Part shown: positions 16,462 to 49,919 of the stretch, piece by piece
Layout of the letters: every line of letters starts with the position of its first letter
Numbering within the stretch: the first letter of the stretch is position 1
Translations under genes and position numbers: made by a program
Notes under the pieces: model-generated
What the model saw: the letters and a program-made list of their open reading frames with translations, nothing else
Databases searched by the model: none
What the model was told of the DNA's origin: nothing
From: Allomyces arbusculus
Taxonomy: Eukaryota > Blastocladiomycota > Blastocladiomycetes > Blastocladiales > Blastocladiaceae
Assembly: GCA_027604705.1 (NCBI GenBank)
Contig: JADHYV010000005.1
Location: forward strand, 553,726-617,725
Direction: 5' to 3'
Length of the DNA: 64,000 nucleotides

Positions 16462-17530
16462 ATGCCAGAAAATCTCTCAGATGCTGTGACCCCGACTTGC
16501 GCTCAAGCAAACACCACTGTGCCAGGAGTAACTATTGCCAGTCTTCCTCACGATGTGCTCCTTATCATTGTCGACTTGATCGTTGCTCGCGCTCCAAGGA
16601 AAGACCGTGTTGAGCGTCATCTTCGCGTGCCCTCACAGACTGCATGGACACTGTTTGAGGAGCTGCGCCGTATGTCCTGTGCACGGAGCGCTGCCATTGA
16701 CGCACCCTGACCAAGTGGATTGTATCACGTTGACCTCAGTCTCGATGTTGTTTATTTGGACACAATGGCCAAGCGCCATTCAGATCGAATGTGTTGGCAG
16801 CTTACTGCAACAGTAACAACCACCACTCAGCGCCCAGTATCGAATTGCCCAAGAACAGGACCGGCCCAAATGGGGAGCCTCTAGTGGCAGATTTGTTCCC
16901 TCGACTGACGATCAATGCACACGACGATGCGCGCACAATGCAGTTGTTCCAGTGCTGCACTTTTGCAGCAACAACTGATGTTCACTGGTCGCTGTTGACT
17001 TGATCATGGCGCTTCAGCTGAACGAAACAAAGGATGCAGACTGTGCAGATCATCAAGATCCCCAAGGAGTGAGCACCATGTTCAGAAAAGTCGCTGTTTC
17101 GCTCCCCAAGATATCGTGGCTCCACCTTAACCTGCGAACGCATTGCATGCAAGCATCTGCAGCTGTATCTGCCCTCCCCACTTGGAGTGCAACTTTGACG
17201 ACCCTCAACTTGTTGGTCAAGTCTTGTTGGAACGAAGCAGCAAAGTTGCTCAAGCTGCCACACTTGCACACGCTCACTGTCCAGGTAGGATGGGGCTACC
17301 TGAAAACGCTACCAAAAGCAATATAAACTGACGTCGTTGGCTGTCACTGCATCTGATGTGTACACCAGTGCAATTGCACAGTATGCTTGCACACTCTCCA
17401 GTTTGACAATCACAATAAGGTTAGGCAATGCCGCATCTGATCATTCGACAATTGCATTTTGCTGTTTCAACTCTGGCAAGAACGGACCTTTTCTGTGGCA
17501 TTATTGGAGCACAGCCAATAGCCATCTCTT
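16462..17530 (+). pseudogene. F-box-like/LRR protein pseudogene (relic of the gene at 47.8-49.9 kb)
   Basis: It starts with an intact beginning (ATG 16462) that matches the intact paralogue: SLPHDVLLIIVDLIV against TLPLDVLRIIVDFLV, then RHLRVPSQTAWTLFEELRR against HHLRVPSSTALTLFDLRR. The frame then breaks. Homologous pieces continue in other frames: SLPKISWLHLNLRTHCM near 17100, LPHLHTLTVQV near 17260, SAIAQYACTLSSLTI near 17370 and a RQLHFAV block near 17450. The first two correspond to SLPNVAWLEL and LPHLRSLAIKI of the intact copy. At least three frame breaks and an in-frame stop at about 17325 rule out a working protein. It ends where the HAT1 pseudogene begins. GC content is lower than in the surrounding genes. 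Confidence 0.8.
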
Positions 17531-17559
17531 TCCATCGCAGCCCCTCTTCTTCCTCCTTT

Positions 17560-19199
17560 TCAGCCCTTTTCCGCGTCCGCGGCGCACGCCGACCACCTCC
17601 CCCGCGCCCCTGGCGTCCTATACCCTGCCCCCGCGCGCCGCTCCGTCCCCTTCTCCCCCGCCCTCTGCGCCGCGACCCACGCCCGCACCCGCCCGGCATA
17701 CACGATCCTTGCGTACCGATCCATGACCGCCACGTACTGCCGATGCAACACATCCACCTGCTCGCGGCGCGGCACATCCACCCAATCGGCCTTCCCCTCC
17801 CGAAACAACCGCTGCTTGACCAACATCTGCAACTCGTGTGGGACCGGGACTCGCGCATCCCGTAGCGCTGCAAGGACCACCATTTCCCACACCCGTGCCG
17901 CCTGCCTCGGCTTGAGTTTCCATTCGAGCTGCAACCCACGAACCCAGTCCCGCGCGACGTCCGATAAACGCAAGTCGGTCACGGGTCGCGCGCAGCCGCG
18001 GTGCACGCGCGCGCGCGCGTACGGGTCGCCCTCGGCGAGCGGGAGGAGTTCCACTTCGAGTACGCGCAGCAGCGGTGGCGCGTTCGGGTCCGCGCATGCG
18101 AGAACCGCGGCCAAGTCGGCAATATCGCGTAAACTATCGAATGTGGGAGTGGTCGCTTCGACGGCGACTTCGAGCGCGTGCGCGGACGTGGTGTTCAGGG
18201 AAAGGACTTGAATTTCGAGTCGAGCAACGACGCGAGCCCTTGCCGCTGGAACGGGGGGGGGGGGGGGGGACGAGCAGATGCGAAATTCGCCGCCGGTGAT
18301 ACCCTTGGTGGATGGCCGTGTCGGCGAGCCATGGTGGGTCCATAAAAAAGGTGCACGCGGCGAGAAGACCGACGAAGATGGACGGCCCGGCAGCAGAAGG
18401 TTTACGGTACTAGAGAGGAGGTTCCACCGCTCGTCGGACTCGTCGAGGTCGGAGAGAACCAAGGCCGAGTCGCGGTCGAGGAAGTGACGGGCCAGGAACT
18501 TGGCGCGCGCAAAGAAGTCGTGGAAGCCGGGTAAAAGAAGGACGACTACGCGTACGATGGGCGCGTCAGATCCAGCGCTACGGCTGCGATTTGGTGGAGC
18601 ATCAAGAGTCCGTGCACCGCATACAGCTCGTAGACGTGGCTGTCATGCACCACGTCCTGGAAGTGCTTGCCGGGCGGAACGACACGGCCGCCATGCTCGT
18701 CGCGCAGCTGCTGCCAGAACTGGCTTTTAGGACTGGCAAACAGGTCTGAAACCCCCGGAGGCGCGATTGCCTGATCAGCTTCCTTCATCAACCGTCAGCG
18801 ACACGCACCCGGTGCCAACTGCTGATGCATCCGCTCCAATACGGCATCCGCGCCTGGCCCCATCACATGTGGAACCAAACTGGTCGCTAAAAACCGCACG
18901 CGCACGCGCGGATCCGGTAGCTCCGCGAGCAAGTCCTGGAACCCCTTGTCGTGGACGGCTGTCGTCGCCGTCGGATATAATGAATTGGGTAGAGGCGGCT
19001 CCACCATCTTGTCGTGCCCAATGACAAGCCATAGAGTCATGGCATGGCAGAGGTCCAGTCGTGGCGGGAGAGCCGGATCGGTCGCATCCTCGGCGTGCCC
19101 GCGATGGTCCACGTTCTCAGCGGCCGCAGGAGGAACTGGCGCACCGCCCATGTCCATGGGCTTGTCGATACCGCTCGGATCGTGACCATGGGCTGGCAA
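17560..19199 (-). pseudogene. HAT1 pseudogene (histone acetyltransferase type B catalytic subunit copy)
   Basis: A closely related copy of the intact HAT1 at 43.6-45.2 kb. It spans the acidic N-terminus (19199-18795), the HVYELYAV segment (near 18600) and the C-terminal half (18462-17560). The C-terminal part, for example RQAARVWEMVVLAALRDARV, matches the intact copy nearly residue for residue. The GNAT core is broken. HRRRISHLLVPPPPP lies in one frame and the flanking blocks in two others, so at least two frameshifts interrupt the acetyl-CoA motif. One lies at a 17-G run (18253-18269). The second intron of the intact gene is still present (GATCTGACGCG branch point, CGCGTAG acceptor). That makes this a DNA-level duplicate and not a retrocopy. 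A sequencing error could explain the poly-G break but not all of them. Confidence 0.85.
18253..18269. repeat. Homopolymer run of 17 G
   Basis: Uninterrupted G run within the HAT1 pseudogene at the position corresponding to the VLPPFQRQG motif of the intact gene. It coincides with a frame change. Confidence 0.95.
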
Positions 19200-19644
19200 G
19201 GTCTAGGCTGCGCGGTCGCGCGCTATCGTGAGCCGAAGCTTGTGGCAGGTCCAAAATTGCGCGCCGCGGTTTGTGACGGTTTCCATGAATGCAGTAAGTT
19301 TTGCTTGCACGTCGTGGTTGTCGTGGTTGCCGTGCCGGTGACTGTCGGCGAGTCCGGCTGGCTATCCGAGTGAATGAAGGAGTCACACTTCCCACATCGC
19401 CACGATCGTGTCTTTCTGCGAAGCAAGACATGACACGATGCGACGCACGTTCATGCTGCTGGTGGCCTTGATTCTAGCGCTGATCCTGGGCACTTGCTCG
19501 CGATCCAGCTGCCTTTTGCGACCCAGAGGCCCTTTCGCGACCCAGAGGCCCAGTCTCGAACGAACCAGCGGCGCGTCAGCAACCAACGGCCCCCATTCTC
19601 TCCATTACCCATTCCTCTATTTCTCCTCCCCTCCCTTGCTCCCC
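19200..19644. other. Intergenic, upstream of the HAT1 pseudogene
   Basis: No supported gene. Short patches resemble the region just upstream of the intact HAT1 (43.44-43.59 kb, reverse strand), suggesting that the duplication included some 5' flank. Confidence 0.4.
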
Positions 19645-20860
19645 TTACTCGGTCCACACCTCCTCCGCATACCGTGTCGCGTCCCACACCATTGCCTCCT
19701 GCGACACACGCCACTTTTCTCTCCTCCACTCGCCCCTTGCCACCTGCGCCAACTGATACTCGACCAAGCTCGGCCAAAACGTCCAGAACCCAAATTCAGG
19801 CCAGGCCGGGCTTACAAATCGCAGAAGGCACTGCTCCGACGCCTGCCACATGAGAAAGTCCGATAGCCGATGTTCGCCGGACGTGCGCACGAGCAAGTCG
19901 AGCGGCGGGCATCCGGAAGTTCCGAGATGCTGTGCGACGGCTGAAATGGGATCGAGGTCGGGGCGCGGGTGGGCGCGGGCGTGCGAGACGGCGGTGAGCA
20001 TTTCGTGCCGCGAGGTGTACGGGATGCAGATGTTGAGGATGGCGCTAGTGGCAGGTGCAATGAAGTCGTTGAGCGAAATAGATCAAGTATACGCGCGAAA
20101 GAAGGGTGGCGCCGCAGCGTCTGTCGCTTCGTACCCAGCATGGTGGCACGTGCGCCGCTCGGCCTCGGCCGCGGCGCGCTGCACGGTGATCGGCAAGAGT
20201 CGCACGTCGCCGAGGATGCGGATGCGGATCTGGTGCCGCTCCACGAGCTCACTACGAGACACTCGTCAGTAAGTGTCATGGAAACGGTCAACCGCAACGC
20301 CATCCCAGCGCCGTACCTCTCGGTGGACAGCAACGCCAACTTATCAATCATCATCGCAAACAAGTACGCGACCTCGTCCTGGTCGCGCTTGAAGTTTTCA
20401 ATACTGAACGCGTAGACGGTCACGCACTGCACGCCGAGCTGCAGGCACCAGTCGAGCGCCGACTCGAGCGCAAGCCAGCCGAGGTAGTGCCCGTGCCGCT
20501 TGTCGCGGTGGATCTTTTTCGCAAACCTGGCAAAGCATAGGGGTGAGGTCGTGCTTGGCAAATGGTTGGGTGCGGACCGAATACGGACCGCCGGTTGCCG
20601 TCCATGATGAAGGCAACGTGCCGCGGAACGGGACCGCATGCCATGATGCGGAGGCACCAGTGTTGCGACCAGGCGACGAGGGCGGTCCAGGCCGCAGCGA
20701 CGGTGGCAAGGATGGCGCTGAACAGGCCGGTTGGTGCGGGGTCGTCGTTGATGATGGTGGTCATGGTGGGTTCGGCGCGTGCTGGTGCTGCTGATGCTGC
20801 TGATGTTGTCCTAGCATCCGGAGCCGCAGCGGGTGTCGGTGGTGGGTCCGTCGTGGCCAT
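19645..20860 (-). CDS. RER2: cis-prenyltransferase (dehydrodolichyl diphosphate synthase)
   Basis: Four exons: 20589-20860, 20317-20526, 20135-20251 and 19645-20044 (introns 62, 65 and 90 nt), giving 332 residues. It elongates farnesyl diphosphate with isopentenyl diphosphate in cis to make the dolichol precursor at the ER. Visible signatures are the catalytic HVAFIMDGNRR at about residues 81-91 (split by intron 1), GHYLGWLALESALDWC, VTVYAFSIENFKRDQDEV, RIRILGDVRLLP, AILNICIPYTSR and LLVRTSGEHRLSDFLMWQ with FWPS near the end. A hydrophobic N-terminal segment (SAILATVAAAWTALVAW) is probably a membrane anchor. The intron junctions restore each conserved block exactly, which supports the model. 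SRT1 would be an equally good yeast name. It is divergent from mS33, with 209 bp between the start codons. Confidence 0.93.
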
Positions 20861-21069
20861 GGGTATTGATATTTTGCTGATGATGTCGCCCGGGGAGGAG
20901 GATGAAGAGCAGACGCGATGCGAGGCCGCAGCCCCCGCATCAGCAAGACTCTGAGCCCTCGGCACCCGCCACGTGCCCTGGTGAAGCTGCCTGTTCATCC
21001 CGCGACCGTTGCAACACAGACACCCACCGACACCAATCCGCCACTGCCATTGAATCCGGCACCACCACC
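20861..21069. promoter_or_regulatory. Short bidirectional promoter between cis-prenyltransferase and mS33
   Basis: Only 209 bp separate the two start codons, so both promoters must fit here. No TATA box is seen. Confidence 0.6.
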
Positions 21070-21466
21070 ATGTCCACCACACTCGCCACCAAGACGCGCC
21101 ACTTGCGGCAACTGTCGTGCCAGATCTTCCAGACCGTGCACAACCCGACGCATGCGCGCACGGGCCACCGCATCCTGCGCGAGCGGCTCGCCGGACCGCA
21201 CTTGACCAGCTACTACCCCATCGAACCGCCGACCATCAAGAAATTGAACGCGGTTTGCGAACCGCTCGGGCTCGAAAAGTTGATCGATATGCAGGAGGTG
21301 CTGCGGTTGAACAAGATCAAGGGCTTGAATGCGCGCAACAAGGGCGCGCCCAAGAAGGGTGCGTTGCGGTTGGTGGTCACGGTGGTGGAATGCATGGGAA
21401 CTGACGCCGTTGGTGGCGGTGCTAGGCGAGGGCAAGCGTGCTGCGCTCAACAAGAAGAAAAAGTAA
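21070..21466 (+). CDS. RSM27: Mitochondrial small-subunit ribosomal protein mS33
   Basis: Exons 21070-21358 and 21426-21466 join across a 67-nt intron (GTGCGT ... GTGCTAG) to give 109 residues, the usual size for mS33 (yeast Rsm27, human MRPS33). The family pattern is visible throughout. It begins with a short basic start, then QIFQTVHNPTHARTGHRIL, then YYPIEPPTIKKLNAVCEPLG. The basic tail reads KKGEGKRAALNKKKK only after the intron is removed. The unspliced frame would lose the GEGKR signature, so the splice is well supported. The protein is a structural component of the head of the mitochondrial 28S/37S subunit. The start is the first ATG and no separate presequence is obvious, which is normal for this family. 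Confidence 0.88.
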
Positions 21467-21658
21467 ACCGGCGGCGGCGTGTCGGTCGTTGTCGTCGTCG
21501 CTTGGTTCCTCCAGCTCTCGGTGTGCCTGTTGCTGCTCTTCGTTCCATATTTAGTACAATCGTCTATCTCGATAGCCTCCTGAGCGTGCGTGGTGCTCCC
21601 GCCTACTTGTCGGCCAACCGCTTTTCCCGCTCCATGACCTACCATCGCACGCGCATCG

Positions 21659-22539
21659 TCAGTCCACAGTCATGCCCCTGACCGCGTCCACGTCGTCGTC
21701 GATGTGGCGCACCTTGGCATCAAACTTGATCAAAATCGTCGTACGGAACGGGAACCCTGCAACGGGCACCGTATGCGCCGTGACCCGTGCCGGGAACCCG
21801 CTCCCATCCAGCATCGCCTCGACAATCCCGGCCACAAACGCGCCCGTGTTCAGTTGCGCCATTTCTTTTGGGATCGAAATGTACCGGTTCACGACGAGGT
21901 CGTTGTCGCTGATCATGTCTACACAGACCGCACGGTGAGCAGTGGAAAACCAGGCGGGAGTGAGAGCGGACACATACACTCGTCGTCGTGCTCCGACGAC
22001 TTTTCAAGTGAATCCGCGGGCTTGCCAAACAGGGCTTTCCAGACGTTGGTGTTGATGAACAGCAGCGCATTGAGTAACTTCACGTCACGCTTCGATCCGC
22101 GGTCCCGGAAGACGAGCAATTCCAGCAGCCGTTGGCCGACGCGGTACCCGACGAGGTTTAGGCTAGTCGCGTACGGACGGGTTGGTTCGGGTCAGCAACG
22201 CGGCGCGACACGACGGGGGGGCAGAGGGAGCTGGTGGAGGGCAGGTACCGCTTCTCCAAATCCTGGATCCCCTTGACGTGTTTCTGCGAATACTGCACAA
22301 GTTCGGAAAATAGGAACGCAAACGCGCTCAGCGAGACCTGGCCATGGCGCACACGGAGCCGGTCAGCGTCGTCGTGGTGATTGCACGCAACGTTTGGCAT
22401 GCGTGCAGGATACCTCGCCAACGCGTGGCCTCGTAATCGACCGGTCGAGCTGCGCGCGCGTGCGCGCGTCGCCCGCGCCCACGACCGACCCGCCAATCGA
22501 CGAGAGCCGCGAGTTCATGCCGCTGAGCGCTTGCTGCAT
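21659..22539 (-). CDS. TRS31: TRAPP complex subunit 5 (TRAPPC5/Trs31)
   Basis: Four exons: 22414-22539, 22249-22337, 21978-22162 and 21659-21918 (introns 76, 86 and 59 nt), giving 219 residues. It is a core Bet3-fold subunit of the TRAPP tethering/Rab1 (Ypt1) GEF complexes acting at ER-Golgi and Golgi membranes. Matching blocks are SLSAFAFLFSELVQYSQKHV, LNLVGYRVGQRLLELLVFRD, WKALFGKPADSLEKS and, after the last intron, YMISDNDLVVNRYISIPKEM followed by AFVAGIVEAMLDGSGFPARV. The junction DDE|Y comes from a perfect GTATGT donor. The N-terminus (MQQALSGMNSRLSSIGG) is longer than in yeast and looks disordered. It is convergent with mS33. Confidence 0.93.
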
Positions 22540-23123
22540 GGTGGAGATCTGGGGAAATGGATCGGAGCGTGGATTGCTGGTGGTTGGGCTTGGACGCGGT
22601 TGCAGCTGCTTGAGGTGGTGCTGCCGGTTCAATGACGAATGGAGCGTGGCGGAGAACAGTCGAGGATGTCGAACGTGAGCAACACGCTGGTGGGTGCGAG
22701 ACGAGTTCGTGTGTGACGGGGGGGGACTAAACCACGATCCACGACCACCGCTCCCGAACACTGCGACGGCAGACGATCGCGCCAAGGTGGCCTCTATCTC
22801 AGTGTCGTGTATCGTGTATTTATATGGACATGATGGGCCCGCAAGGGGCATGCGCGCACAACAGGAAGCCCACCAAAAAATTAACCAGACAAACTGCAAA
22901 ATCGAAACACAAGACAGGCTCGTCCCACGATCGGGACCTGACAGAGGGGTGGACAGGCACGACATGCCGTTGGGCAACAAGAGGGAGGGGCGCACGAGGA
23001 TGCAGATAAGCAAGGTGAGCGGGAGAGGCGGAGAAGACAAAGAATGGGTGGCCTAGCCAGAAGAGGACACGTCCCCAGCTGCCAGGGCGCGAGAAAGAGG
23101 GAGAGGGGCAATCATGCCGCATG
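22540..23123. other. Intergenic between TRAPPC5 and a Pro/Ser-rich gene
   Basis: Contains the TRAPPC5 promoter and the 3' flank of the Pro/Ser-rich gene (both minus strand). A TATTTATATGG element near 22816 (TATA-like) and less GC-rich sequence at about 22860-22920 are the only notable features. Confidence 0.4.
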
Positions 23124-25820
23124 TCATGGCCCCGCGGCCACAGGCGTCCGTGGACTCCCCACGGTCGACCGCACCGGCGAATCCTCATCCAAGTCGCGCA
23201 TCGCGCGATGAATCTGCGCGACCAAATGCGCCACCTCTGGATCGACCTCCTCTCCACCCTCTTTATCCTTGACCGGCTCGACTGCGGGCGCCGTCTCCGC
23301 CGCAGGCGACTCGTCGTCGCACAACCCGGCATACGCAGCAATCAAATCCATGGTCGCCTCCTGCGCCGGTTTCGGCGACGACGGTTCCAGCACTGGCCCC
23401 ACCGCCGCCGAGTCCTTGGACGCGCGCTTACTGCCCTTCCCCGCCGACCGCGCGCGCTTCAGCGTGCCTGGTACGTCCGCCGCGACCGCCGACAAAAGAT
23501 CACGCAGCGTCCTCGGTTTCGTGCTCGCCGACGGACTCGTCACGGACTGCGGCGGTGAGGGACTCGCGGCGCGCCGCAGCGGCGGCGGAAGGTCCTTGGG
23601 CACCGGTTCCGGCGGCGGCGTCGGCGGTGCACCTCCCGTCATGGCGGGCGTCGAGCTGGAAAGAAAACTCGCAAGCATCGCGCGTTCCTCGTCGACCGTG
23701 CGCGCCATGAGCGATTCGAGCCGAGACACGTCGTCGGCACTTGGCGGTGCCGCCGCGGCGGGACTCGTTGGTGGTGGCGCGTCGGTGTCCCCGTCGGCCG
23801 CGACCGTCGGCACGTCCGCTGCGGCAGGCGGGAGGGATGACCGTGCCGCTGACACGACGGATGACCTCGATCGCGAGAGGGACCGTTTACTCGACCCCCC
23901 AGTTGTAGCGCCGACTCCGGCAGCCAGGGCGTCCAAGTCCGACCCGATCCACGACGGTAACCGCCACGCATCCCCACCGTCGATCCCCGGATCCGAATCC
24001 GCAATCAGCTTCGGCGTCAGCGAAATACGTTTCGTCACGTGCGCCGGTGGCAACCAGGCAGCATCCAACGCCGCGTCGTCGTCGGGCATCGTCGACGCGC
24101 GCGACCGCGACGCCGCGGGCGATCGCGACCGGGACGTCGGTGGTGGCGGGAGCGGTGCGGGAACCGGGACCGCCACCGCCGTCACGTGCGCGGTCGCCGT
24201 CGTCGTGGGGGACATGGGCGGGACGGGCGGGACCGAGCCCGCCGGTGGCGGCATCGGTGGTGGCGGAGCGGCGGCTGCGCGGGGGCCCGAGGGCGTGCGC
24301 GACCGTGAGCCCGTGGGGATTGTCCGCGCGGAGGTCCGGCTCGGCGGGCGGGGCGGGAGCGGCGCGGTCTCTTCTTCGCCGTCGACTTCGACCACATGGA
24401 CGAGCGGCGACGCGGCAGAGACGGCGTGTGCGGCGTTGCGTGCGGGGGACGCGGCGCGGACCATCGAGTGCGGCGCGTCGAGTCGCGGGAGGTCCGAAAA
24501 GGACATGGATCGCCGCCGTAACGCGGGGGACGGTGGTGGGTGCGCGGCACGCGGGCGTTGTGAGGTGCCTGCTGGTGGTGGAGGCGTAGAGCGTGGGAGG
24601 GACGCGAACCCCGTCGTTTGTTGCCGCAGCGCGGCCTCGGCGAGCGGGACGACCCCGGCAAGGACCGTGCGCGCGGTCGCGGCAACGAGGTGCGGCGAGG
24701 AAATGGAGACGCGCCTTGGTTCCTCGGCCAAGTCAAAACTGCCGCGAATCGAAGACGGGGTCGCCAGGTCCGGCGGTCCCGAGCGCGGCAAAGTACCAGC
24801 CCCACGCGTCGACGACGACGAGGACCGCGTCGCGGACGAAAACCCGTCCGCGAGCGTGCGCGCCAACATGCGGAACACGCCGGGCGACTTGCGTTTCTTT
24901 TGCGTTGCCGGCGAGAGCATCGCGGGCGTCGGTGGCGGTGGGGCCGGGATCCCGTTGCCCGGTGGGGGCGTGACCGTGATTCCAACGCGCGCCAACGCAC
25001 GCAATCGCGCCGCCGCGTCGTTGTCGGCCTCGTCAGAGTCGCTCGATTCGTCCAAGGTACGCTGCCGAGCGAGAACGCCCGCGGCGACGGGGGACCTTGG
25101 CGCGGGCGCGTGCACGGTCGGGCCCAAGGGGACGGCACCGGGGTTGCTGGATGCGGCGACGGCGACAGGGGCTGAAATGACGGACCGCAGCCGCGCGCGG
25201 ACGGCGTCGTCGCTGTCGGAATCGGACGTGTCGGCGTTGCCCAGACCGGACGCGCGCGGTTTGGTCGGCGAGAAGAGCAGCATCATCGACCCGCGCGACC
25301 GGCGCCGGCGATGGTGCGTGGCCGAGGTCGGGGTTGTGGCCGTCGTGGGCGGCGCGAGCGCCGGTGCGCCTGCCAGGAGCAAGGGCGCGGCATGCGGCGG
25401 CGAGGTGGCGAGTGCGAGCGGCGGGGGTGGTGGCGGCACATGGTGATGCGGTTGCTGCTGTTGCAGGTGCGCGCGCTCGTCGAGGCGGCGGCGGCGGCGG
25501 TCAAGCAGCGATTCGTGCGGGTGCAACGGGTCGGCGAGCGTGGAAAAAGTGGGCGAGGCCGGGATCGCTGCTGTTGCGGGTGGAGGAGCAGCGGCGGCGG
25601 CCAAGTCGGGCGCGTGCCGCGCCATGCCGCCGTTGTCGTTGTCGTTGTCGTCCAGGACATCGACGTCCTCGTCCTCGCCCGCTCCGCGCGACTCGTGCTC
25701 GGGCAGAGGTTGCAGCGCGTGCAGCATGGAGACGGCGCCCGGCGCCGTGCCCGACGAGACGTGCACAAAGGATGCGCGCACGGGCGCCGAGATGGAGGGA
25801 CGCGCCGGCGGCTTGCCCAT
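23124..25820 (-). CDS. Large Pro/Ser/Ala-rich, largely disordered protein, unidentified
   Basis: Single exon, 898 residues, from the ATG at 25820. The frame is open further upstream, but there the translation is Arg/Ala/Gly-rich and looks like GC-rich spacer. The protein is dominated by Pro, Ser, Ala and Arg with many SP and RS sites and acidic patches such as EDEDVDVLDDNDNDN near the N-terminus. A Gln/His patch (QQQQPHHH) and several poly-Pro runs (PPPPPP) could bind SH3, WW or EVH1 domains. A small ordered part lies at the C-terminus (EVDPEVAHLVAQIHRAMRDL). No catalytic domain is visible. The layout suggests a scaffold, cytoskeletal or signalling adaptor regulated by phosphorylation; this is inference. 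It is divergent from the gene at 26455. Confidence 0.6.
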   Translation of the reverse strand: MGKPPARPSISAPVRASFVHVSSGTAPGAVSMLHALQPLPEHESRGAGEDEDVDVLDDNDNDNGGMARHAPDLAAAAAPPPATAAIPASPTFSTLADPLHPHESLLDRRRRRLDERAHLQQQQPHHHVPPPPPPLALATSPPHAAPLLLAGAPALAPPTTATTPTSATHHRRRRSRGSMMLLFSPTKPRASGLGNADTSDSDSDDAVRARLRSVISAPVAVAASSNPGAVPLGPTVHAPAPRSPVAAGVLARQRTLDESSDSDEADNDAAARLRALARVGITVTPPPGNGIPAPPPPTPAMLSPATQKKRKSPGVFRMLARTLADGFSSATRSSSSSTRGAGTLPRSGPPDLATPSSIRGSFDLAEEPRRVSISSPHLVAATARTVLAGVVPLAEAALRQQTTGFASLPRSTPPPPAGTSQRPRAAHPPPSPALRRRSMSFSDLPRLDAPHSMVRAASPARNAAHAVSAASPLVHVVEVDGEEETAPLPPRPPSRTSARTIPTGSRSRTPSGPRAAAAPPPPMPPPAGSVPPVPPMSPTTTATAHVTAVAVPVPAPLPPPPTSRSRSPAASRSRASTMPDDDAALDAAWLPPAHVTKRISLTPKLIADSDPGIDGGDAWRLPSWIGSDLDALAAGVGATTGGSSKRSLSRSRSSVVSAARSSLPPAAADVPTVAADGDTDAPPPTSPAAAAPPSADDVSRLESLMARTVDEERAMLASFLSSSTPAMTGGAPPTPPPEPVPKDLPPPLRRAASPSPPQSVTSPSASTKPRTLRDLLSAVAADVPGTLKRARSAGKGSKRASKDSAAVGPVLEPSSPKPAQEATMDLIAAYAGLCDDESPAAETAPAVEPVKDKEGGEEVDPEVAHLVAQIHRAMRDLDEDSPVRSTVGSPRTPVAAGP

Positions 25821-26454
25821 CGTGGAGGCGGTGTCGCGGGGCGAGTGCGGCGAGCGGGGCGGGGCGGGGCGGCGCTTGCCGTTGGCGTGTTCGTGGTAGT
25901 GCGTGAGTGCTCGAGCGCGGTTGCTTTGGGGCGGCGGCGGGGAGCGGGCGGGCGCGCGCCGGCGCGACAGAGCCGCTGGCCGGGTGGGCGACCGTGCGCG
26001 ACGGTCTGTGCGACGTGTCGGTGGTTGGCGTGGTGGAGGCACAGGGCGGGGAGCCAGCGTCGCATTTCGCCCCCGGGTCGCACGCGTGGCAACGGTGGGC
26101 GCGGTGGCGGCGGCCGCCTGCGAACGGCCGCGCTGCGAGGGATCTGCAGGCCGGGGCCACGCCGCGGCCGTGCCACTCGGCGCGCCCACGTGTGCCCACC
26201 GCCCTCCCACGCCCCGCCCACGTGGCCGCGTCGGGCCTGCGAGACGTCCCGCACCGCATCGCCGGTCGAGGACGCAAGCCGGCCGCGGCCGCTGCGGCGC
26301 ACCGCACCACGCACGACGCGCACTGCCAGCGCACACACGACTTGGTGCACTCCGACCCTCGACACTCCACCGCGCACGCCGGCGCCAACGATGCCGCTCG
26401 CGAGGCCACGGCACCCACCCACCTGACGCTGCATGGACCCGACACAAGACGGCC
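25821..26454. promoter_or_regulatory. Divergent promoter region between two large disordered-protein genes
   Basis: 634 bp of very GC-rich sequence separate the start codons of the minus-strand gene (25820) and the plus-strand gene (26455). Open frames here are Arg/Ala/Gly-rich and look non-coding. No TATA box was found. Confidence 0.4.
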
Positions 26455-28639: not shown

Positions 28640-28872
28640 GCGCGCGCGTGGGCGGGATCGGCGGGTGGAGTGGGGCACCGGCGTATGTGAATCAAATCAT
28701 TCCAGATCATTTCCATGGCGCTCATTGAGGGCGGCAAGGCGCGTCCCGCGAGCACGACGAGCGGTCAGGTGGACGGCACGTGCGTGTCCCGCGTGTCTCC
28801 CTCGCTTGGCCGTACGACGTCGCGCCCACGGCCGCCGCCGTGCCGTCCGCATCGTCGTCCGCGACGTGCTCG

Positions 28873-38339: not shown

Positions 38340-39089
38340 CGTGGACGCAAATTGCGCTAATTTTGCGTGTATTTGTTGCACTGTTCTTCCGTCGGTTCGG
38401 GACTGAGTCAGCGTGGCCACCAAAAAGCCTGAAAAAATGTAGATGCGGGGCTGGACCGCTGGACCGGGGGAGGATCACGCCATAAATCAGCGCCAGGCTT
38501 TTGGCGCCCCCAATTGTGGTTCCGGGGTGGATCGCAGGGGCTGCAAGCCCACTCCCAGCCCCATGTTGAGCCTGTTGCGGGCAGGTGCGTGGTGGCCATG
38601 CTTGTGGCCGTGTTCTGTGCCACAGTGCCCGGTTTTATCAGTTCAAAGTTCTGGTCACCCGCCCACCGTTGCCCGGCTCGCTCCGCGTTGATAAGGAGGG
38701 TGAAACGCTTGGTGAACGCCTGTTGGTTCGTGAGCCTCCGGGTTCGACAGCTTCCACCCTGTTCCAAGCACCGTCAAACACGGTGCCCGAGCCCGATCAC
38801 CAACGTGGCCCCCCGGCACCGCCACGGGTATAAAACGCGGCCTCCCCCGCGCGGTCTTGCTCAGGTTACCGCCCCGCGTGCTTCGATCCAACAGCTTGGT
38901 GTCGCCTCTGCGACTTCCCGCCCAACTGCCGCCGCGACTGCTCGACACTCGCCTGTCGGCCACGGCGACGACGACAACAACGACGACCTGCTGCTGCTCA
39001 ATTGATATACAATTTTCCAGCCCGTCAGCCAGTCGCTGATCGTCCTCCCCCTGCTCGTTTGATTTGTTGTGCAAAAATACACCGAGAGA
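38340..39089. promoter_or_regulatory. Intergenic region with TATA box for the Ser/Pro-rich gene
   Basis: 750 bp between MED1 and the next plus-strand gene. TATAAAA at 38829-38835 lies about 255 bp before the next ATG. An untranslated leader with a small intron is possible. No other gene is supported. Confidence 0.5.
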
Positions 39090-40259: not shown

Positions 40260-40979
40260 GGGAGTGGCGGTCGGTTACTCAGTCGTGAGCGGCTGCCGCG
40301 GCACTCATGTACATACTCGCCCGGTCGGTCAGCTCGACTCAAATTTTACTCTCTCGCACACGGCTCAGACGACACGACACGCACGCGCTGGGGCGCTCCC
40401 CTGGCGAACCTCTGCGCGGCCGCGGCGCACCGCCCAGGGCCGTGCGTCGTCACCATCGGTCTGGTCGGCGCTCTATTCAAGTTACCCTCGCCGTCGGTCG
40501 GCGCCGTCGGTGTCGACGTCGCCATAGTCGTTGCCCGATGCGGGCGCTCCACCACGTGCGCGCTGGCAGCGTAGTTTGTCCGAGTTGGGATGTGTTCTTA
40601 TTTTGGTGGAAACGGTTTGTCGATTTTTTGTGCTCAAAGATCCCCGCGTTTTTTGGTGGCTTCTGGTTGGCCCGGGCTCTGGCTTGGGCTCTGGCTTGGT
40701 CCCTTGTGCGATGTGTTTGGCAGGCGACAGGCGTGGTTGCTTGTGGCCACAATGAAGTTTGGCAACGACGCGCTTTCCAAAGCGTTGGCGACGGCGTCGT
40801 TGCCCACCGCGAGCAAATGCCCCGCAAATCATGATCTCGTTCGCGCTTCGACCACCGACCTTGCGAGCCCACGACCGCCAGCGTCGTGCCGCCCCCGACG
40901 CCCCCGCAGACTGATCAATCAACTCGGCCCGGCAGCACTCACGCTCACGACACACTCCGCGCCCACCACAACCACCAAC
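40260..40979. other. Intergenic, upstream of the ArsB-type transporter
   Basis: 720 bp without a supported gene. A short GGCTCTGGCTT tandem lies near 40675-40705. The transporter promoter should lie in the right half. Confidence 0.4.
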
Positions 40980-43243
40980 ATGTCACCGGGCGCGGCACCG
41001 CCACCACCGCTCGCGCCGCTCACGGCCGCGTCGGTCGTGACGATCCTGCTGTTCCTGCTCGTCAACGTCTTTGTTGTCCACCCGGTCGAGTTCCGCGTCA
41101 AGGCCGCATTCCGCAAAGCCGCGGGCCAGCCGGGCACGATTCCAATCGTGCTCAATTATGCGACTGTCACGTTCCCGGCTGCGCTCGTGCTGCTGGCCAC
41201 GGGTGCGATTGCGCCCGACACGGTGCGCCGCGCGATTGTGGGCGACGATAAGTTGGTGCCGTGGGTCGTGGTCGTGCTGTTCTTCAGTATGGCCTACATT
41301 TGCATCAGGTAATACTTTGGGCGACAAGCCGGAATTCGCCGTGTGAGTTGCTGATCCTGACGGTGGTCGTCGACGGCAGTCTCGACTTGACAGGTGTGCT
41401 CGAGTTCATTTCGCTCAAGGTCTTGCAACTGCTCGGCAAGTCGGGCAAGCGGCTCAACATGGCCGTCTTTGTGCTCACCTCGGTCATGACACTCTTCACG
41501 TCCAACGACGTGGTGATCATGACGCTCACGCCCGTGATCCTCTACTTGGCGCGGCATACGGGCTGCAACCCGCTGCCGTACCTGTACACGCAATTCTACG
41601 CGGCGAATATGCTCGGGATGATCTGGTTTATGGGCAATACAACGAACGCACGTTGCTCGAATCGATTTGTTTGTTTCCCGCTGCAGGGCGGACCGAAAAG
41701 GCGTGGCTGACAATCTTCCTCCATTCTCCCCTACCAGGTCGTCGTCGCCATGGCCTTTGGCATCCAACCGCTCGACTTTTCGCTCGTCATGGCGCCTCCG
41801 ACCCTCGTCATGCACCTGCTCGCGTTTGCCGGCGCGGCCTACTACTTCCGGCACGACCTGCCCGAGACCATGGACGCGATCACGACCGACCCGCGGCATG
41901 TCCTACGCGACGGTGCCGGCGGCATGTTTGTTGGCCTGATCGTCTTCGTCTGCATTGTCCTGCTCTTTGTCTCGAGTTTCGTGAACGTGCCGATTTGGCT
42001 GATCACCGTGACCGCCGCGGGGATCACGCTTGCGCGCGACATTCTCGTGGATTTCGTCACGCGCCGCGAGTATCGTGCCGCGTCGGTGCTCATGGACGAG
42101 ATGGTCGAGGTCGGTGAGCGTGCCGCAGCAGCGGCGGCGGGGCATAGCGACGATGATGGGGATGCTGCACACAATGCCAATCCGGCGGTCGCATCGACGT
42201 CGGCACTGACCCTGCCGGACCCGCACCCGCCACCGCCGTTCGACGCACACGACTCGGCCCCCGCATCCGGTTCCGGTAAAGGTTGGCTCGACCGTGCGCC
42301 CCATGCCGCGGGAGGGTCGACGTCCGTGTGGGATTCGGACGTGACCGCGGTCGCGACCGCCACACCGGTTTCGGCTACCAAGGACGCGTCATGGACCAGC
42401 CCCGCGGCACCGTCGCTGCACGCGCGGCACCATCATCACCTCGCTGGCTCCGCGAGCGACGTGGACCTCGTACGCGCACGCACCGTGTCCGGTGCAGGGG
42501 ACCGCTTGCCGTCGCTCCTGGCCGCCGCCGACGCGCGCGGCGCCATGGTGCCCTCTGCGGCAGCATCGCCCGTGCTTGTCACCGACGGCAAGCAGAGCAC
42601 GTCCTCGGACGCGCCACCATCGACCTCGATCCCGCCGTCAGCGCCCGGTGTCGTGACCGGCACCAACGCCCCACCACCCACGGCCGTCCGGCACGCGGCC
42701 TATCGCGCGCTCGTTCGCGCGCGGCGGCGGTTCCCGCACGTGGCCGAATGCCTCGAACGCGTCCCCTACTCGGTCCTGCCGTTCCTCCTCGGGCAATTCA
42801 TTCTCGTCGAGGCGCTCGACGCGACACAGGTCGTGCCGTACCTGGCCGTCGCAGCAGCGGAACTCTGTGCGATTCATCCGGTCGTGACGGCGCTTCTCGT
42901 GGCGCTCGTCGCGTGCATGCTGTGCGCGGTCATGTCGAACTTGCCCATGACGATTCTCATGACCAAAGTGCTCCTGAGTCCGGGGTTCACGGCACGCGTC
43001 ACGGGCACCGCGCATCGGGCCGCGGCCATGTATGCGGTCGTGGTTGCATCGAATGTAGCCACGTGTTTGGCGCTGCCCGGGTGCTTGGCGGGACTGATGT
43101 GGGCCGCGATGTTGGGCGCAAAAGGGGTCGCGATGCGGCCGGCCGCGTTTGCGAAGGTTGGCTTGGTCGTCTTGACGGTGCCCGTGCTTGTCGGAGTCGC
43201 GGGGTTGGGCGGGATGGTGGTTGTCACGACCAAGGAGGCGTAA
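40980..43243 (+). CDS. ArsB/NhaD-type ion transporter (arsenite-permease-like)
   Basis: Exons 40980-41308, 41380-41647 and 41738-43243 give 700 residues. Intron 1 (71 nt) restores MAYICISLDLTGVLEFISLK. Intron 2 (90 nt) restores GNTTNVVVAMAFGIQPLDF, the equivalent of the GNPTN loop of ArsB-type permeases. Together with FTSNDVVIMTLTPVILYLAR this places it in the ion-transporter superfamily that exports arsenite, citrate or Na+. The two halves each hold about five to six helices. They are separated by a ~200-residue hydrophilic loop (about residues 320-520, rich in Ala, Ser, Pro, Asp and His) that bacterial ArsB lacks. The C-terminal half ends with NLPMTILMTKVLLSPGFT and further helices. The substrate cannot be read from sequence. 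The start is the first ATG, directly before the first helix. Confidence 0.8.
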
Positions 43244-43590
43244 GGAGATAGATGGGTTTCGTTTCTGCACTGGATTGTTGAAGCGCTTCAGCGCACATTA
43301 CCATTCGATTTGGGACGGGCTTGGTCTGCCGTCTCCACCGTGTCCACGGCGTGAAAGGAAGGTGAACGTCACGTCATATCGGAGGTGCCATTGACGTGGG
43401 CTGGGAATGACTCCTTGCACATCGCGACCACCAACGGCGTCCATGAGTGGCCAAGCATCACGACCACGAGCACGGCGACCAGCACCGCGTAGACTTGCTG
43501 CATTGCAAGCAATCTGTGCCTACGAGCCAATCAATTTTTTTGCGGCTGTGGACCAAGTGCCAGCCAGCCCGCGCTCGCCAGATCCCAGGC
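43244..43590. other. HAT1 upstream region
   Basis: 347 bp between the transporter stop and the HAT1 start. The right half has patches matching the flank of the HAT1 pseudogene. No separate gene is supported. Confidence 0.4.
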
Positions 43591-45222
43591 ATGGTTCACC
43601 ATGCTGCCGAGCCGGCGCCTGCGCGCGACCAAGATCCGAACATTGTCCACGACCCTATGGACATTGACGACGCGCCCGCTCCAGCCGCTCCGGAAGACGC
43701 GGCAGATCATGGCCATGGCAATGCGCCAGCTCCACCACCACAGCCGGCGGCGGGCGTCGACCTCAGCAACGTGTTGACGCTATCACTGGTTATCGGGCAC
43801 AATGCCGACGCTGCGCCGCCTCCGCCCATTTCATTTCACCCTACAGCGACAGCAGCCGTCCATGATGAGGGGCTCAAGGACGTGCTCGCAGGACGACCGG
43901 ATCCGCAAGTGCACGTGCGGTTTTCGGCCATGGAGTTGGTTCCGACGGTGACGGGGACGGAAGCGGACGCGATCATGGAGTCGATGCATCAGCAGTCGGC
44001 GCCAGGTATGCTTCATTGTTGCTTGGGCAGCCGCCCCGATCTTGCTTGAAGCTGACCTGGCGTTTCTGTTCGAATCAGAGCTGTTTGCCAAGTCGGAAAA
44101 GCAGTTCCAGCGACAACTGCGCCACGAGTACCGTGGCGGCGCCATCCCGCCCGGCAAGTACGTCGAAGACGTTGTGCATGACTGCCACGTCTATGAGCTG
44201 TACGCGGTCCGTGGTCCTTGCTTCTTTTTCCACCCACCAGGAGCGCCGGATCTGACCCGTGCATTGCGTTCTAGTCGTCCTTTTTCTACCCCGGCTTCCG
44301 GCTCTTCTTCACGCGTGCCAAATTCCTCGCGCACCACTTCCTCGACCGCGACTCTGCCTCGGTCCTCGCTGACCTCGACGACACCGACGAGCGGTGGAAC
44401 TTCCTGCTCCTCTATCGTCAACCCCCAACCGCCGGGCCGTCCATTTTCGTCGGTCTTCTCGCCGCGTGCACCTTTTTCATGTACCCGCCGTGGCTCGCCG
44501 ACACGGCTACCCACCAGCGGTACCACCGTCGACGCATTTCGCAACTGCTCGTCCTCCCGCCGTTCCAGCGCCAAGGACTCGCGTCGCTCCTCTACTCGAA
44601 ATTCATGTCCCTGAACGCCGCGTCCGCGCACGCGCTCGAAGTCGCCGTCGAAGCGACCACGCCCGCATTCGACGATTTACGCGATATCGCCGACTTGACC
44701 GCGGTCCTCTCGCGCGCGGACCCGAACGCGCCACCGCTGCTGCACGTACCCGAAGTGGAACTCCTCCCGCTCGCCAAGGGCGACCCGTACGCGCGCGCGC
44801 GCGTGCACCGCGACTGCGCGCGGCCCGTGACCGACTTGTGTTTACCGGACGTCGCGCGGGACCGGATTCGTGGGTTGCAGCTCGAATGGAAACTCGAGCC
44901 ACGGCAGGCGGCACGGGTGTGGGAAATGGCGGTCCTCGCAGCGGTACGGGATGCGCGAGTCCCGGTCCCGCACGAGTTGCGGATGTTGGTCAAGCAGCGG
45001 TTGTTTTGGGAGGGGAAGGCCGATTGGGTGGATGTGCCGCGCCGCGAGCGGGTGGAGGTGTTGCATCGGCGGTATGTGGCGGTCATGGAGCGGTACGCAA
45101 GGATCGTGTATGCCGTGCGGGCGCGGGTCGCGGCGCAGAGGGTCACGGAGAAGGGGGTCGGGTCGTGCGCGGGGGCAGGGGATGGGACGCCGGGAGGAGT
45201 GCGGGGGAGGTGGTCGGTGTGA
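43591..45222 (+). CDS. HAT1: Histone acetyltransferase type B catalytic subunit (HAT1), intact copy
   Basis: Exons 43591-44005, 44052-44206 and 44275-45222 (introns 46 and 68 nt), 505 residues. HAT1 acetylates newly made histone H4 (Lys5/Lys12) with the WD-repeat partner HAT2/RBBP7. N-terminal domain: NVLTLSLVIGHN, FHPTATAAVHDEGLKDVLAG and QLRHEYRGGAIPPGKYVEDV with HVYELYA before intron 2. Catalytic domain: SSFFYPGFRLFFTRAKFLA, DDTDERWNFLLLY and the acetyl-CoA loop RRRISQLLVLPPFQRQGLAS (Q/R-x-x-G-x-A, about residues 276-295). A long Arg/Glu-rich helical C-terminus follows. The acidic start (PMDIDDAPAP) is disordered. The start at 43591 aligns with that of the pseudogene copy. The gene is longer than yeast Hat1 (374 residues). 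It is convergent toward the F-box gene, with the DUF4804-like gene between. Confidence 0.9.
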
Positions 45223-46043: not shown

Positions 46044-47375
46044 ATGGCCGACCGTCAATCGAATGACGCGCATCCAGGGCCGACAGACAAGACCGCCGAC
46101 GCGATTATTGTTGAGTTGCTCGCAGCCTCGGCCCGCTTCCAAAAAGCTGTGCGCGAGATTCCGACCAAGAACAACCAGATTGCCGCGTTTACCGACCCGG
46201 CCGACCGCTCCATTATTGCTCGTGCTGCCAAAACGACGCGCATTCTCGTCCCGCATCGCGCGATTGCGCTCATGGACGCGTTCCTGACGCGCAAGCGCAG
46301 TCACGGCGTGCCCACTGAGCAGCGCCTCTATGCGACCATGGATTGGCGCGCGCTAGTCCAGCGTCTCATCAAGTGTCGCCCTCTCGCCTTCTACCTGGCA
46401 AGCGATAGCGCTCTGACCCGCGACGGTGTGTCCCTGCACGGCAATGCGATCTGGAAGTCGATCGAAAATCGCCCACCGAAACTGCCGCTCGCCGAGTACC
46501 TGTCGTATGACGAAATGGCCATTTCGGCACTCGTGGCTGTCTCGACGCCGACGCTGTTCATCAACGATGGCAGCCGCGGCAATGTCGGTCGCAAGGGTCG
46601 GCTGGAGACGTTTGAGCGGTTTGGCATTTACATTGCTGTCGTTGGTGCCCGCTTCGAGGTGGACGATGAAATGGAGGCGCGGTTCATGCTCGGCACGGTC
46701 GGAATCCCGCCCCCGTCGTCCAATTCGCTCGAACCCGAGTGGTTGGCGTTTTACGGTGCCGACGAGACCGACCGCAAGTTGCTTCCGCTCTATCCCAATC
46801 CCGTGCCGGACGCGACACGTGTTCTGGACGCGGTACGGTACCGGCGTCGCATGCGCGCGACGTTCGACCTGATCTTGGCCGAGTGCGCGTCGCGCAGTGC
46901 CGAGTACCACCAGCCCGCGTACTTGCGGCTCTTGGGCCTGGGCCTTGGCGCTTGGGCCGTTCACAAGGCCAAACAGACGGCGCTCTACGTCGGCGAGTTG
47001 CTCGAAGCGGTCAAGGCCTCGTCGTACACGACCGACCAGCTCGCGTGCGTCGACTTGCTTCGATTTGACCTGTCGCTTTTGGATTTTGCTCTGCCGGAAA
47101 CCGTCACGACGCGCAACGGTGCCCAAGTGGCACTGCGTGCATCGCGTGATAACCCGGCAGCCCTGCTGCCCGAGCCGTACCACGGCAAGTGTCTTCTTGT
47201 CACGACCTATCCATGGGATGGGAATTCCTTTCCCGGGAACGAGTACTGGCTGGGAGCACTTGCCGCCAGCGGTGACCCGGCGGCCGCGTGTTGCTCACTG
47301 ATTCCGGAACTGCAGAACCCATACATCAACTCGGGGTTGCTGGACCGGATTGTCGTGCATGGTCATGATGAGTGA
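46044..47375 (+). CDS. DUF4804-like protein, intronless
   Basis: Single exon, 443 residues. It has features I associate with the DUF4804 family. The N-terminal half has YLSYDEMAISALVAVSTPT, LFINDGSRGNVGRKG and TFERFGIYIAVVGARFE. The C-terminal half has LRLLGLGLGAWAV, LLVTTYPWDGNSFPGNEYWL and ASGDPAAACCSLIPELQNPY. The family occurs in some bacteria (Legionella-type among them) and scattered eukaryotes, and has no assigned biochemical function. The sequence lacks a signal peptide and membrane helices, so a cytosolic enzyme is likely. The gene is intronless among intron-rich neighbours and sits in AT-richer flanks between HAT1 and the F-box gene. It is absent from the inverted copy of that pair at 16-19 kb. 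Horizontal acquisition is possible but unproven. Confidence 0.6.
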   Translation: MADRQSNDAHPGPTDKTADAIIVELLAASARFQKAVREIPTKNNQIAAFTDPADRSIIARAAKTTRILVPHRAIALMDAFLTRKRSHGVPTEQRLYATMDWRALVQRLIKCRPLAFYLASDSALTRDGVSLHGNAIWKSIENRPPKLPLAEYLSYDEMAISALVAVSTPTLFINDGSRGNVGRKGRLETFERFGIYIAVVGARFEVDDEMEARFMLGTVGIPPPSSNSLEPEWLAFYGADETDRKLLPLYPNPVPDATRVLDAVRYRRRMRATFDLILAECASRSAEYHQPAYLRLLGLGLGAWAVHKAKQTALYVGELLEAVKASSYTTDQLACVDLLRFDLSLLDFALPETVTTRNGAQVALRASRDNPAALLPEPYHGKCLLVTTYPWDGNSFPGNEYWLGALAASGDPAAACCSLIPELQNPYINSGLLDRIVVHGHDE

Positions 47376-47804
47376 ACGATTGTTGTAGAGTTATAAATTG
47401 TCCATTTTTTTCCGACATTTGTCAGTTGACAAGGAGTGACGCTCGCTCTGCAATTTCACGATGATGCGGACAACAATAAAGCTTCCATTTTCACCGCGGT
47501 ATTTTGTATTGACAGGGGACGATCGCATACTGGTGGCTCATGGAATGGTGATGGCGACGTTTCTAATGATAAATAATGCAAGCGTTGGAATCGAGGTGTT
47601 GATGTGCTGCCGCGCTTCTGCTCCAGATGTCATGCTCGTGGACTAGCATCCCTGGCCCACGACCGCCTTGACTGCATCAGCGGGCTGGATCAGATTGTTG
47701 GGGGAGAGAGAAATGAGGATCGGGTAAGGAGAGGTTCATTTCGACGATACAGACATGAAATCAACCAACCAGCAACACGAACACAAACCACCATTTCCAG
47801 GCTT
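47376..47804. other. Convergent 3' flanks of the DUF4804-like and F-box genes
   Basis: 429 bp of AT-richer sequence with no supported gene; both neighbours end here. Confidence 0.45.
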
Positions 47805-49919
47805 TCAATTCGCGACCATAATTTGCCCAACAATACCATCTGCTGCGAGCGCTTGGACCATGGCCTCAATGTGCTTGAACGCTTCCGTATCAATAACGCT
47901 CACAGGCACTCGCACTTCGAGCGGGAACGGATCACGCTGGCGCTCACGCACCTCCACCGCATCATCCTCACCAACCCACGGCCGGCATTCAACACACCAT
48001 CGAGCCACGTTCGTAATCTCCTGGATCATTTGCTCAACGTCGTTGAACTCGCGCAGCTCGACCACGAGCATGTGCACAATCTTCTTCCATCCAGCGTGGT
48101 TCTGTTGGAAGTCCATGGATGGAATGACGCCCCACAACGCGTTCTTCTGCACATACACGAGCCGCCATTCGGCCAGTGGCGCGTCGTCCTCGTCAAACGC
48201 GAACGGCGCTTCATCAATGTGATAGAGCCGTGGCATGTGCGAGAGGAATTCGGCGAGCTGCATGCTAAATTCGCCCGTGATGCGTTCGAGTGTCGGCAAG
48301 CATGCTGCAGGCAGCGAGCGCAAAGTTGACGGTGGTTGTTGGCCAACGTCGTTTTGATCCGAAATGAGACTCGCACTGAGTTCAACATGTTCGAGGGAGG
48401 GCAAGGCGCGGTCAGAGAACGTTGCTAACGTTTCGGCCGAGATGATCAAGTGCGTGACAGGTGCCAGAATTGGTGCGCTGTCATCAATCCATTCCACGAG
48501 CGGCGGGAGCGTCAGCGTCGTGAGATTGATGAGCACGTCGAGGTTGACGCCGGACATCATGATGGGAAGCAACTCCGAGCCTCGAGAAATCGACAGGGTT
48601 TGAATCGACGGCCACATTGCGTCTGGCACAGGCATGTGCCAATATCCTTGTTCAATCCACATGGCAACATTGGCAAGACGTGGGGCAACAAGACAACGCG
48701 CAAGTGCAGCAACTGCGTGGGCGTTCCCGCGCAGCGAAATCAGGTTCGGGCATGGGCTGGTCGTAAACAATTCAGTGACCATACCCGGTGGAGCCCACCC
48801 TTCTACTGAAAGCGACTCGAGAGCAGGAAGACCTGGGCTGCCAGCAGCAAGTTGGAAGAAGACGGTCGTTTTGCCCGTAAACTGTCGCAGCTCGCACCAG
48901 AGGGGCATGTGTGGTGGGTCAAGTTTTGCGGACGCAAAAATGTCGGCTTGCAAGGTGGCAAGGCTGCTAAGCGTGCCGGCGTACTGCGCAATCGCACTCG
49001 GATGCAACTGCGCTGCAGTTACCGAAAGCGACGCGAGCTGCAGCGCTTTTGGCAACGCTTCCAAATTGCCAACGTGACTATTCGACACTTGAATCTTGAT
49101 CGCAAGACTGCGCAAATGCGGCAGCTCAATCGATTGGGCAACTTGGTTCCAGCTCTGATCGACCGTCAGGTTCAGCGAGGTCAACGCTGCGCTCCACGAA
49201 ACAAGCGCCGACGCGACAGAACGAGTTGGTGAGCACTCCGCCATGGCAAGCTCGAGCCACGCAACATTGGGCAACGATGCAGCAAGTGTCTCGAGAACAA
49301 CGCCGGGTCCTTGCGCGCGTTTGAGCGGGTTGCTCTTTGCAGCGTCGCGCACTGCAACTGATTCGGTCAGCGACAGCGCCATGATCTGGTCGGCCGCAAC
49401 CAGCCAAAATCGGTCGTCATGGCGAGAGCACGGTACGGGAACAATCGGCACGCACGCATCCTGCGTGTCGAATTTGGGAAGACCGAGTGTTTCCGTGAGA
49501 CGTTTCCCGTCTGGCCCGTTTCGATTCTTCTTCTCAAACGCAATGATGGGTGCGGACTGGCGGCCGAATCCGTTTGCAACAATAGTCCACCGCATCGGGA
49601 GGACAGGCTTTTGGCCTCGACGCTCTGACAACTTGTCGAAAGCAGCATCAAGACTCAACTTGACGTAAAATCCCGCCAAAGCATCGTCAATAGCAGCGCG
49701 CCACGCGCGGGAAACGCGACGCAGGTCAAATAATGTTAGCGCCGTCGATGAAGGCACTCGAAGATGATGGTCGACATGGTCTTGGTCGGAAGCAGTCACG
49801 ACAAGGAAGTCGACGATAATGCGGAGCACATCAAGTGGAAGCGTGGCGAGAGTTGCTGGCGCTGCCGTGGTCGACGTGAATTCACCGGCCTCATGGCTCG
49901 TGATGACGGCTTGGTCCAT
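47805..49919 (-). CDS. F-box-like/LRR protein, intact copy
   Basis: Single exon, 704 residues from the ATG at 49919. Near the N-terminus, TLPLDVLRIIVDFLVV with HHLRVPSSTALTLFDLRRVS and RAWRAAIDDALAGFYV has the LP-x-x-V/I-L-x-x-I-x-x-x-L and L-x-x-V-S-R-x-W-R layout of an F-box-like domain. The rest consists of leucine-rich repeats of irregular length: LPNVAWLELAMAE, LVSWSAALTSLNLTVD, LPHLRSLAIKIQ, LPALESLSVEGWAP, CPNLISLRGNA, SIQTLSISRG and LPSLEHVELSASL. F-box/LRR proteins usually recruit substrates to SCF ubiquitin ligases, but the substrate is unknown. Lower GC than its neighbours and the absence of introns suggest a rapidly evolving family. The pseudogene at 16.5 kb is a second member. 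The N-terminus before the F-box is a short Thr/Ala-rich leader. Confidence 0.7.
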   Translation of the reverse strand: MDQAVITSHEAGEFTSTTAAPATLATLPLDVLRIIVDFLVVTASDQDHVDHHLRVPSSTALTLFDLRRVSRAWRAAIDDALAGFYVKLSLDAAFDKLSERRGQKPVLPMRWTIVANGFGRQSAPIIAFEKKNRNGPDGKRLTETLGLPKFDTQDACVPIVPVPCSRHDDRFWLVAADQIMALSLTESVAVRDAAKSNPLKRAQGPGVVLETLAASLPNVAWLELAMAECSPTRSVASALVSWSAALTSLNLTVDQSWNQVAQSIELPHLRSLAIKIQVSNSHVGNLEALPKALQLASLSVTAAQLHPSAIAQYAGTLSSLATLQADIFASAKLDPPHMPLWCELRQFTGKTTVFFQLAAGSPGLPALESLSVEGWAPPGMVTELFTTSPCPNLISLRGNAHAVAALARCLVAPRLANVAMWIEQGYWHMPVPDAMWPSIQTLSISRGSELLPIMMSGVNLDVLINLTTLTLPPLVEWIDDSAPILAPVTHLIISAETLATFSDRALPSLEHVELSASLISDQNDVGQQPPSTLRSLPAACLPTLERITGEFSMQLAEFLSHMPRLYHIDEAPFAFDEDDAPLAEWRLVYVQKNALWGVIPSMDFQQNHAGWKKIVHMLVVELREFNDVEQMIQEITNVARWCVECRPWVGEDDAVEVRERQRDPFPLEVRVPVSVIDTEAFKHIEAMVQALAADGIVGQIMVAN

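Follow-up and report, generated by a model that had tools for sequence, protein, structure and literature searches.

The window analysed here is a stretch of 64,000 nucleotides from the Allomyces arbusculus genome (G000:C5:553726-617725, running to the contig end; genome of 25.9 Mb in 197 contigs). It holds a HAT1-like GNAT gene, a gene of the MavL-like ADP-ribosylhydrolase family and an F-box-like gene on the opposite strand and, about 24 kb away, a dead and shortened mirror copy of this locus. The features are listed in Table 1.

Table 1. Features of the intact locus, its mirrored relic and related genes elsewhere in the genome (window coordinates unless a contig is given).
Feature	Position	Strand	Basis
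F-box-like relic, codons ~16-320 of the 47805-49919 gene	16510..17405	+	translated matches, searches, tree
Relic junction	17406..17492	.	similarity to 45250-48960 within control range
Relic of HAT1-like 3' flanking DNA, matching 45223-45303	17493..17583	-	flank test
HAT1-like relic; both introns recognisable; frameshifts and stops	17584..19211	-	self-BLAST, translated matches, alignment
Relic side of high-identity tract, partner of 44592-45130	17673..18222	-	alignment, codon-position counts
Weak upstream match to 43402-43538, marking the outer edge of the detectable block	19253..19394	-	flank test
Unduplicated 24-kb segment separating the mirror copies	19395..43401	.	self-BLAST: no further long pair in the window
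Intact HAT1-like GNAT gene, exons 43591-44005, 44079-44206, 44275-45222	43591..45222	+	hand model
High-identity tract, exon 3	44592..45130	+	codon-position counts, block scan
MavL-like ADP-ribosylhydrolase family (PF16062) gene, absent from relic locus	46044..47375	+	215.6 bits, cut-off 27
F-box-like gene, 704 aa, open, intact	47805..49919	-	Pfam models below cut-off
Canonical HAT1 with Hat1_N	~2625-4018 within G000:C10:278500-285500		Hat1_N search, human HAT1 match
MavL-like family places	C68:39477-40802, C34:74144-75409, C1:839-844 kb and 1003-1004 kb, C100:4.4-6.1 kb

Self-BLAST of the window linked the two loci by two pairs, both in minus orientation, 17551-19055 with 45255-43759 (79.7% over 1534 columns, E 0) and 16527-16702 with 49857-49685 (68%, E 2e-10); the other four of the six pairs above 40 bits came from short local repeats, around 2.6-3.1 kb and 63 kb. 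Translated matches extended the F-box-like similarity to 17405/48960 with a near constant offset and in the same inverse order. The relic block (~16510-19394) is collinear, in inverse order, with 43402-49874; the similarity begins just 5' of the HAT1-like gene and stops around codon 320 in the F-box-like gene. Consistently with the original prediction that the pair at 16.5-19.2 kb is an inverted, trimmed mirror of 43.6-49.9 kb, there are two copies in inverse orientation with their order preserved, i.e. an inverted segmental duplication. Elsewhere in the window, a direct repeat of ~145 bp (74% identical) occupies 2639-2783 and 2936-3077, and an open frame of 1124 codons without a Pfam match lies on the minus strand at 23124-26498, the region that contains the most G+C-rich part of the window (0.737 in 24001-26000).

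The reach of the similarity beyond the genes was assessed by comparing local scores with those of 300 Markov shuffles and 300 real segments of the window. Upstream of the HAT1-like gene, the score for 200 bp was reached by 0/300 shuffles and 3/300 real segments, and that for 500 bp by 2/300 and 21/300; 3' of the gene it was reached by none of the 300 controls of either kind. On the F-box side, relic and intact copies had no similarity above control in the upstream 500 bp (score reached by 259/300 shuffles and 240/300 real segments), in the upstream 200 bp (135/300 and 146/300) or beyond 48960 (193/300 and 194/300). These scores show that the HAT1-like similarity passes both gene ends and that the F-box flank is undetectable, so that the flank similarity looked for by the original prediction is found at one gene and missing upstream of the other. 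The outer breakpoints are blurred by divergence.

About 3.65 kb of the intact locus, which takes in the entire middle gene and the 3' portion of the F-box-like gene, is represented in the relic by ~87 unalignable bases, in which no remnant of the middle gene was detected (17406-17491 against 45250-48960, score reached by 95/200 controls). This middle gene, predicted to be DUF4804-like, is a member of PF16062, which we take to be the family formerly named DUF4804. MavL-like copies are scattered over the genome (C68, 78% protein identity; C34, 48%; fragments on C1 and C100), some of them with stops, and the C68 copy matches window positions 46026-47371 at 81.5% and shares no flank. This scatter and the lack of a shared flank indicate that the MavL-like gene moves or is copied alone. 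Beside the C68 copy lies a gene with a Fungal_trans domain just above threshold (23.7 bits, cut-off 23), which points to a fungal genome.

The solitary copies leave room for a reading in which the MavL-like gene arrived at the intact locus once the duplication had taken place, the relic having lost only the F-box 3' part. The C68 and window copies agree at 307/439 third positions (70%), and are as diverged there as the HAT1-like pair outside its high-identity tract (see below), which would suit such a late arrival; however, copying between C5 and C68 could have run either way, and one 3.65-kb deletion would by itself account for everything. We consider late entry a possibility, albeit on the doubtful side. 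The absence of the F-box 3' part does need a deletion in either case. Accordingly, of the proposal of an inverted duplication minus its middle gene, the duplication, order and orientation held, whereas the middle gene may never have been in the relic, since MavL-like copies disperse singly.

The intact HAT1-like gene resembles HAT1 (the type B histone acetyltransferase, KAT1) in its GNAT core, whose similarity to solved HAT1 proteins reaches E 4e-7 for yeast Hat1 and E 2e-5 for human HAT1, and in its RISQ-L-PPFQ-QG motif. In contrast to HAT1, it has no detectable Hat1_N domain (PF10394), and its exon 1 is without any Pfam match. A genome-wide Hat1_N search found only a gene on contig C10 (Hat1_N 76.7 bits; E 1.6e-19 to human HAT1; 39% identical to the window gene). 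Because the C10 gene alone combines Hat1_N with a far better match to human HAT1, the window gene is a divergent HAT1 paralogue and not the canonical HAT1 of this genome, and the 'HAT1' label originally given to it has to be amended. The genome thus has one canonical HAT1 together with the divergent pair on C5. A review places Glu187, Glu276 and Asp277 near the active site of the human enzyme, Glu276 being crucial (PMC10092946). With residues counted along alignments, the window gene keeps the Glu276 equivalent, but has Ala for Asp277 and Asp for Glu187.

The HAT1-like relic retains both introns, of which intron 1 is identical to the intact copy at 37/57 positions and intron 2 at 48/62, and it is for this reason a DNA-level copy. 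A retrocopy, derived from mRNA, was rejected as next to impossible: besides the aligned introns, one block holds two convergent genes and includes upstream DNA. The expectation that both relics are pseudogenes was confirmed by frameshifting indels and stops in each. In the aligned HAT1-like exons there were 22 indel runs, 14 of them of a length not divisible by three, and three of the 447 aligned relic codons were stops in the intact-gene frame, all outside the 177 codons aligned in 44592-45130 (the stop count excludes 45131-45222). Three of the 14 non-triplet runs fell inside 44592-45130, where two cancel each other and one sits at the left edge. The relic also carries a run of 18 G (18 C on the coding strand) at ~18252-18269, the run being short and interrupted in the intact gene; it could stem from slippage or from the assembly.

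Identity between the HAT1-like copies is far from even. Contrary to the suggestion of one block of uniform identity, 100-bp windows are 62% identical close to the 5' end of the gene, climb to 96% within exon 3 and fall to 73% after the stop. We labelled the columns of the relic/intact alignment by codon position of the intact gene and counted identities in ungapped pieces of at least 40 bp. At codon positions 1, 2 and 3, identity was 92/116, 89/115 and 65/115 in exon 1, and 106/123, 115/123 and 85/121 in exon 2 plus exon 3 before 44592, so that just upstream of this point third positions were 70% and second positions 93% identical. Between 44592 and 45130, the three positions were alike (161/177, 169/177 and 166/177; 91-95%). 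Third positions were identical at 73/106 left of the tract and 163/174 inside it (Fisher p 1e-7), while positions 1+2 did not differ between the two (p 0.26); third positions lagged positions 1+2 left of the tract (p 2e-6), and no lag was seen inside (p 1.0). A block scan over 483 third positions gave a log-likelihood of 31.2, against a maximum of 12.3 in 2000 permutations. The best block of the scan reached 45219, but since total identity falls to 81% after 45130 and to 73% past the stop, we set the right edge of the tract near 45130.

The lag of third positions left of the tract reflects long selection on both HAT1-like copies. With the C10 HAT1 as outgroup, seven amino-acid changes fell on the relic and none on the intact gene left of the tract (88 codons), and eight and three, respectively, inside it (163 codons). 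Loss of CpG from the tract on the relic side (13 vs 6) was in the expected direction, but the numbers are too small to count. Gene/pseudogene interlocus conversion leaves a short tract with raised silent and replacement identity and older divergence at its edges. Likewise, we find here a bounded tract of raised silent-site as well as replacement identity with older divergence around it; unlike that general case, the two copies lie in inverse orientation at a distance of 24 kb and are fairly divergent beyond the tract, and the direction of transfer has to be deduced. On these counts, exon 3 carries what we read as a gene-conversion tract of ~540 bp over an older divergence under selection, followed by a presumably brief relaxed decay in the relic. 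The transfer probably ran from the living to the dead copy. As DNA, the C10 HAT1 is too distant to polarise it, since blastn matched a single 67-bp stretch of the HAT1 locus. Of the three explanations originally offered for the uneven identity, gene conversion of HAT1 is thus directly supported for this ~540-bp tract, which accounts for most of the unevenness; conversion of the whole gene was rejected, the signal being confined to the exon 3 tract.

Could exon 3 merely be constrained, or constrained on both strands, with no conversion at all? Antisense frames across the tract are open in both copies and give high translated scores, as double constraint might produce. Nevertheless, third positions are just 69-70% identical left of the tract, where the catalytic part is located, and within the tract all positions differ equally; moreover, the relic takes most of the amino-acid changes, as expected if the copies were homogenised recently and the relic then decayed under relaxed constraint. 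Constraint without conversion is consequently very improbable, and we retain the conversion of exon 3.

The gene at 47.8 kb matches PF00646 at 14.4 bits (cut-off 20.5) and PF12937 at 13.3 bits (cut-off 24.3), at the expected N-terminal place in both cases. Since neither F-box model passes its Pfam cut-off, we call the gene F-box-like, a weaker form of the label first assigned. Matches to its family lie at 55 places in the genome, this gene and its relic counted (63 of 70 candidates scored); many members are clustered on contigs C56 and C50. The relic, whose matched pieces are separated by frame shifts, was nonetheless traced to the 47.8-kb gene, as predicted: this gene was the top non-self match for one relic piece searched alone (E 7e-13, next 3e-5) and for a second piece (E 5e-10, next 3e-7), and shared 86/159 identical residues with the relic, compared with 62/153 for the next best. 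A tree with 17 rows drawn from part of the family (the relic, one fragment, the intact gene and 14 other full-length members) also joined the two (SH-aLRT 95.5, UFBoot 97), and neither the family search, the two relic pieces nor this tree revealed a closer relative elsewhere in the genome. A DNA search of the genome with the relic returned only the relic, but it also missed a known 68% match and so carries little weight.

Final F-box counts were restricted to ungapped pieces, because gapped alignment of the whole relic inflates identity, giving 73% even in the upstream stretch without homology by the flank test. The pieces were identical at 91/142, 112/142 and 60/142 of codon positions 1, 2 and 3, a pattern that points to probable protein-level selection on both F-box copies before the death of one. 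Third-position identity was 42% in the F-box pair and 57% and 70% in the HAT1-like parts outside the tract; the F-box pair is thus more diverged than HAT1-like exon 1 (60/142 vs 65/115, p 0.025) and than exon 2 plus early exon 3 (60/142 vs 85/121, p 7e-6). This excess could reflect older, overlapping conversions of the HAT1-like gene, a gradient rising towards its 3' end, faster decay of the F-box copy as originally suggested, or a separate and older duplication of the F-box gene. The last would mean two events, an older F-box pair beside which the HAT1-like gene was copied later, and the greater F-box divergence from both unconverted HAT1-like parts, in a family with so many genomic places, speaks for it. 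However, a second insertion would be required in the mirrored place and orientation within ~90 bp, the difference from exon 1 is seen only at p 0.025, and the same gradient would arise if conversion had recurred around the 3' end of the HAT1-like gene, which makes two events improbable. Adjacency and mirrored order favour a single event, and a single duplication is accordingly what we infer.

Taken as a whole, inverse duplication, decay of one locus and conversion of the exon 3 tract form the best explanation, which we hold to be probable. A block of ~6.5 kb, with the HAT1-like gene, the F-box-like gene and anything between them, was duplicated inversely ~24 kb away, as the order and orientation of the similarity show, and probably in a single event. 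The codon-position pattern shows that the two HAT1-like copies diverged mostly while selection still acted on their proteins, and the F-box copies probably did likewise. One locus would subsequently have lost ~3.65 kb and decayed and, at about the time it ceased to function or later, gene conversion between the inverted copies would have homogenised ~540 bp in exon 3 of the HAT1-like pair.

Staggered breaks leave inverse copies on both sides of an inverted segment. By analogy, such breaks are a candidate origin of the mirrored block; replication template switching is an alternative from which the same picture would be expected. If the inversion model is right, the 24-kb segment between the copies is the inverted segment. 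In Drosophila mojavensis, inversions 2h and 2q are reported to be flanked by inverted duplications attributed to staggered breaks, the inversion being proved against D. virilis, and one copy at 2h is intact (7.1 kb) while the other was reduced to 2.7 kb by deletions (PMC3355041). The A. arbusculus locus likewise has a once-single block inverted on both sides of a segment, with an intact copy of ~6.5 kb and one cut down to 2.9 kb; in contrast, only one genome is compared here, the segment is no longer than 24 kb and divergence between the copies is far greater. That the mirrored block is the footprint of a staggered-break inversion of 24 kb, and that two working divergent-HAT1 copies exchanged repeatedly from a hot HAT1-like 3' end even as one of them died, is a speculative and rather unlikely extension of the history above.

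The literature listings searched gave nothing on this mirrored locus. The change itself is of an ordinary kind. If the inversion model were true, the block would date and mark a small inversion. The locus also illustrates how raw DNA identity misleads on age, the HAT1-like copies seeming young only through one homogenised patch of an exon. Finally, the presence of a divergent HAT1 paralogue beside the canonical HAT1, with residues altered next to a retained catalytic Glu, may be worth an enzymologist's test.
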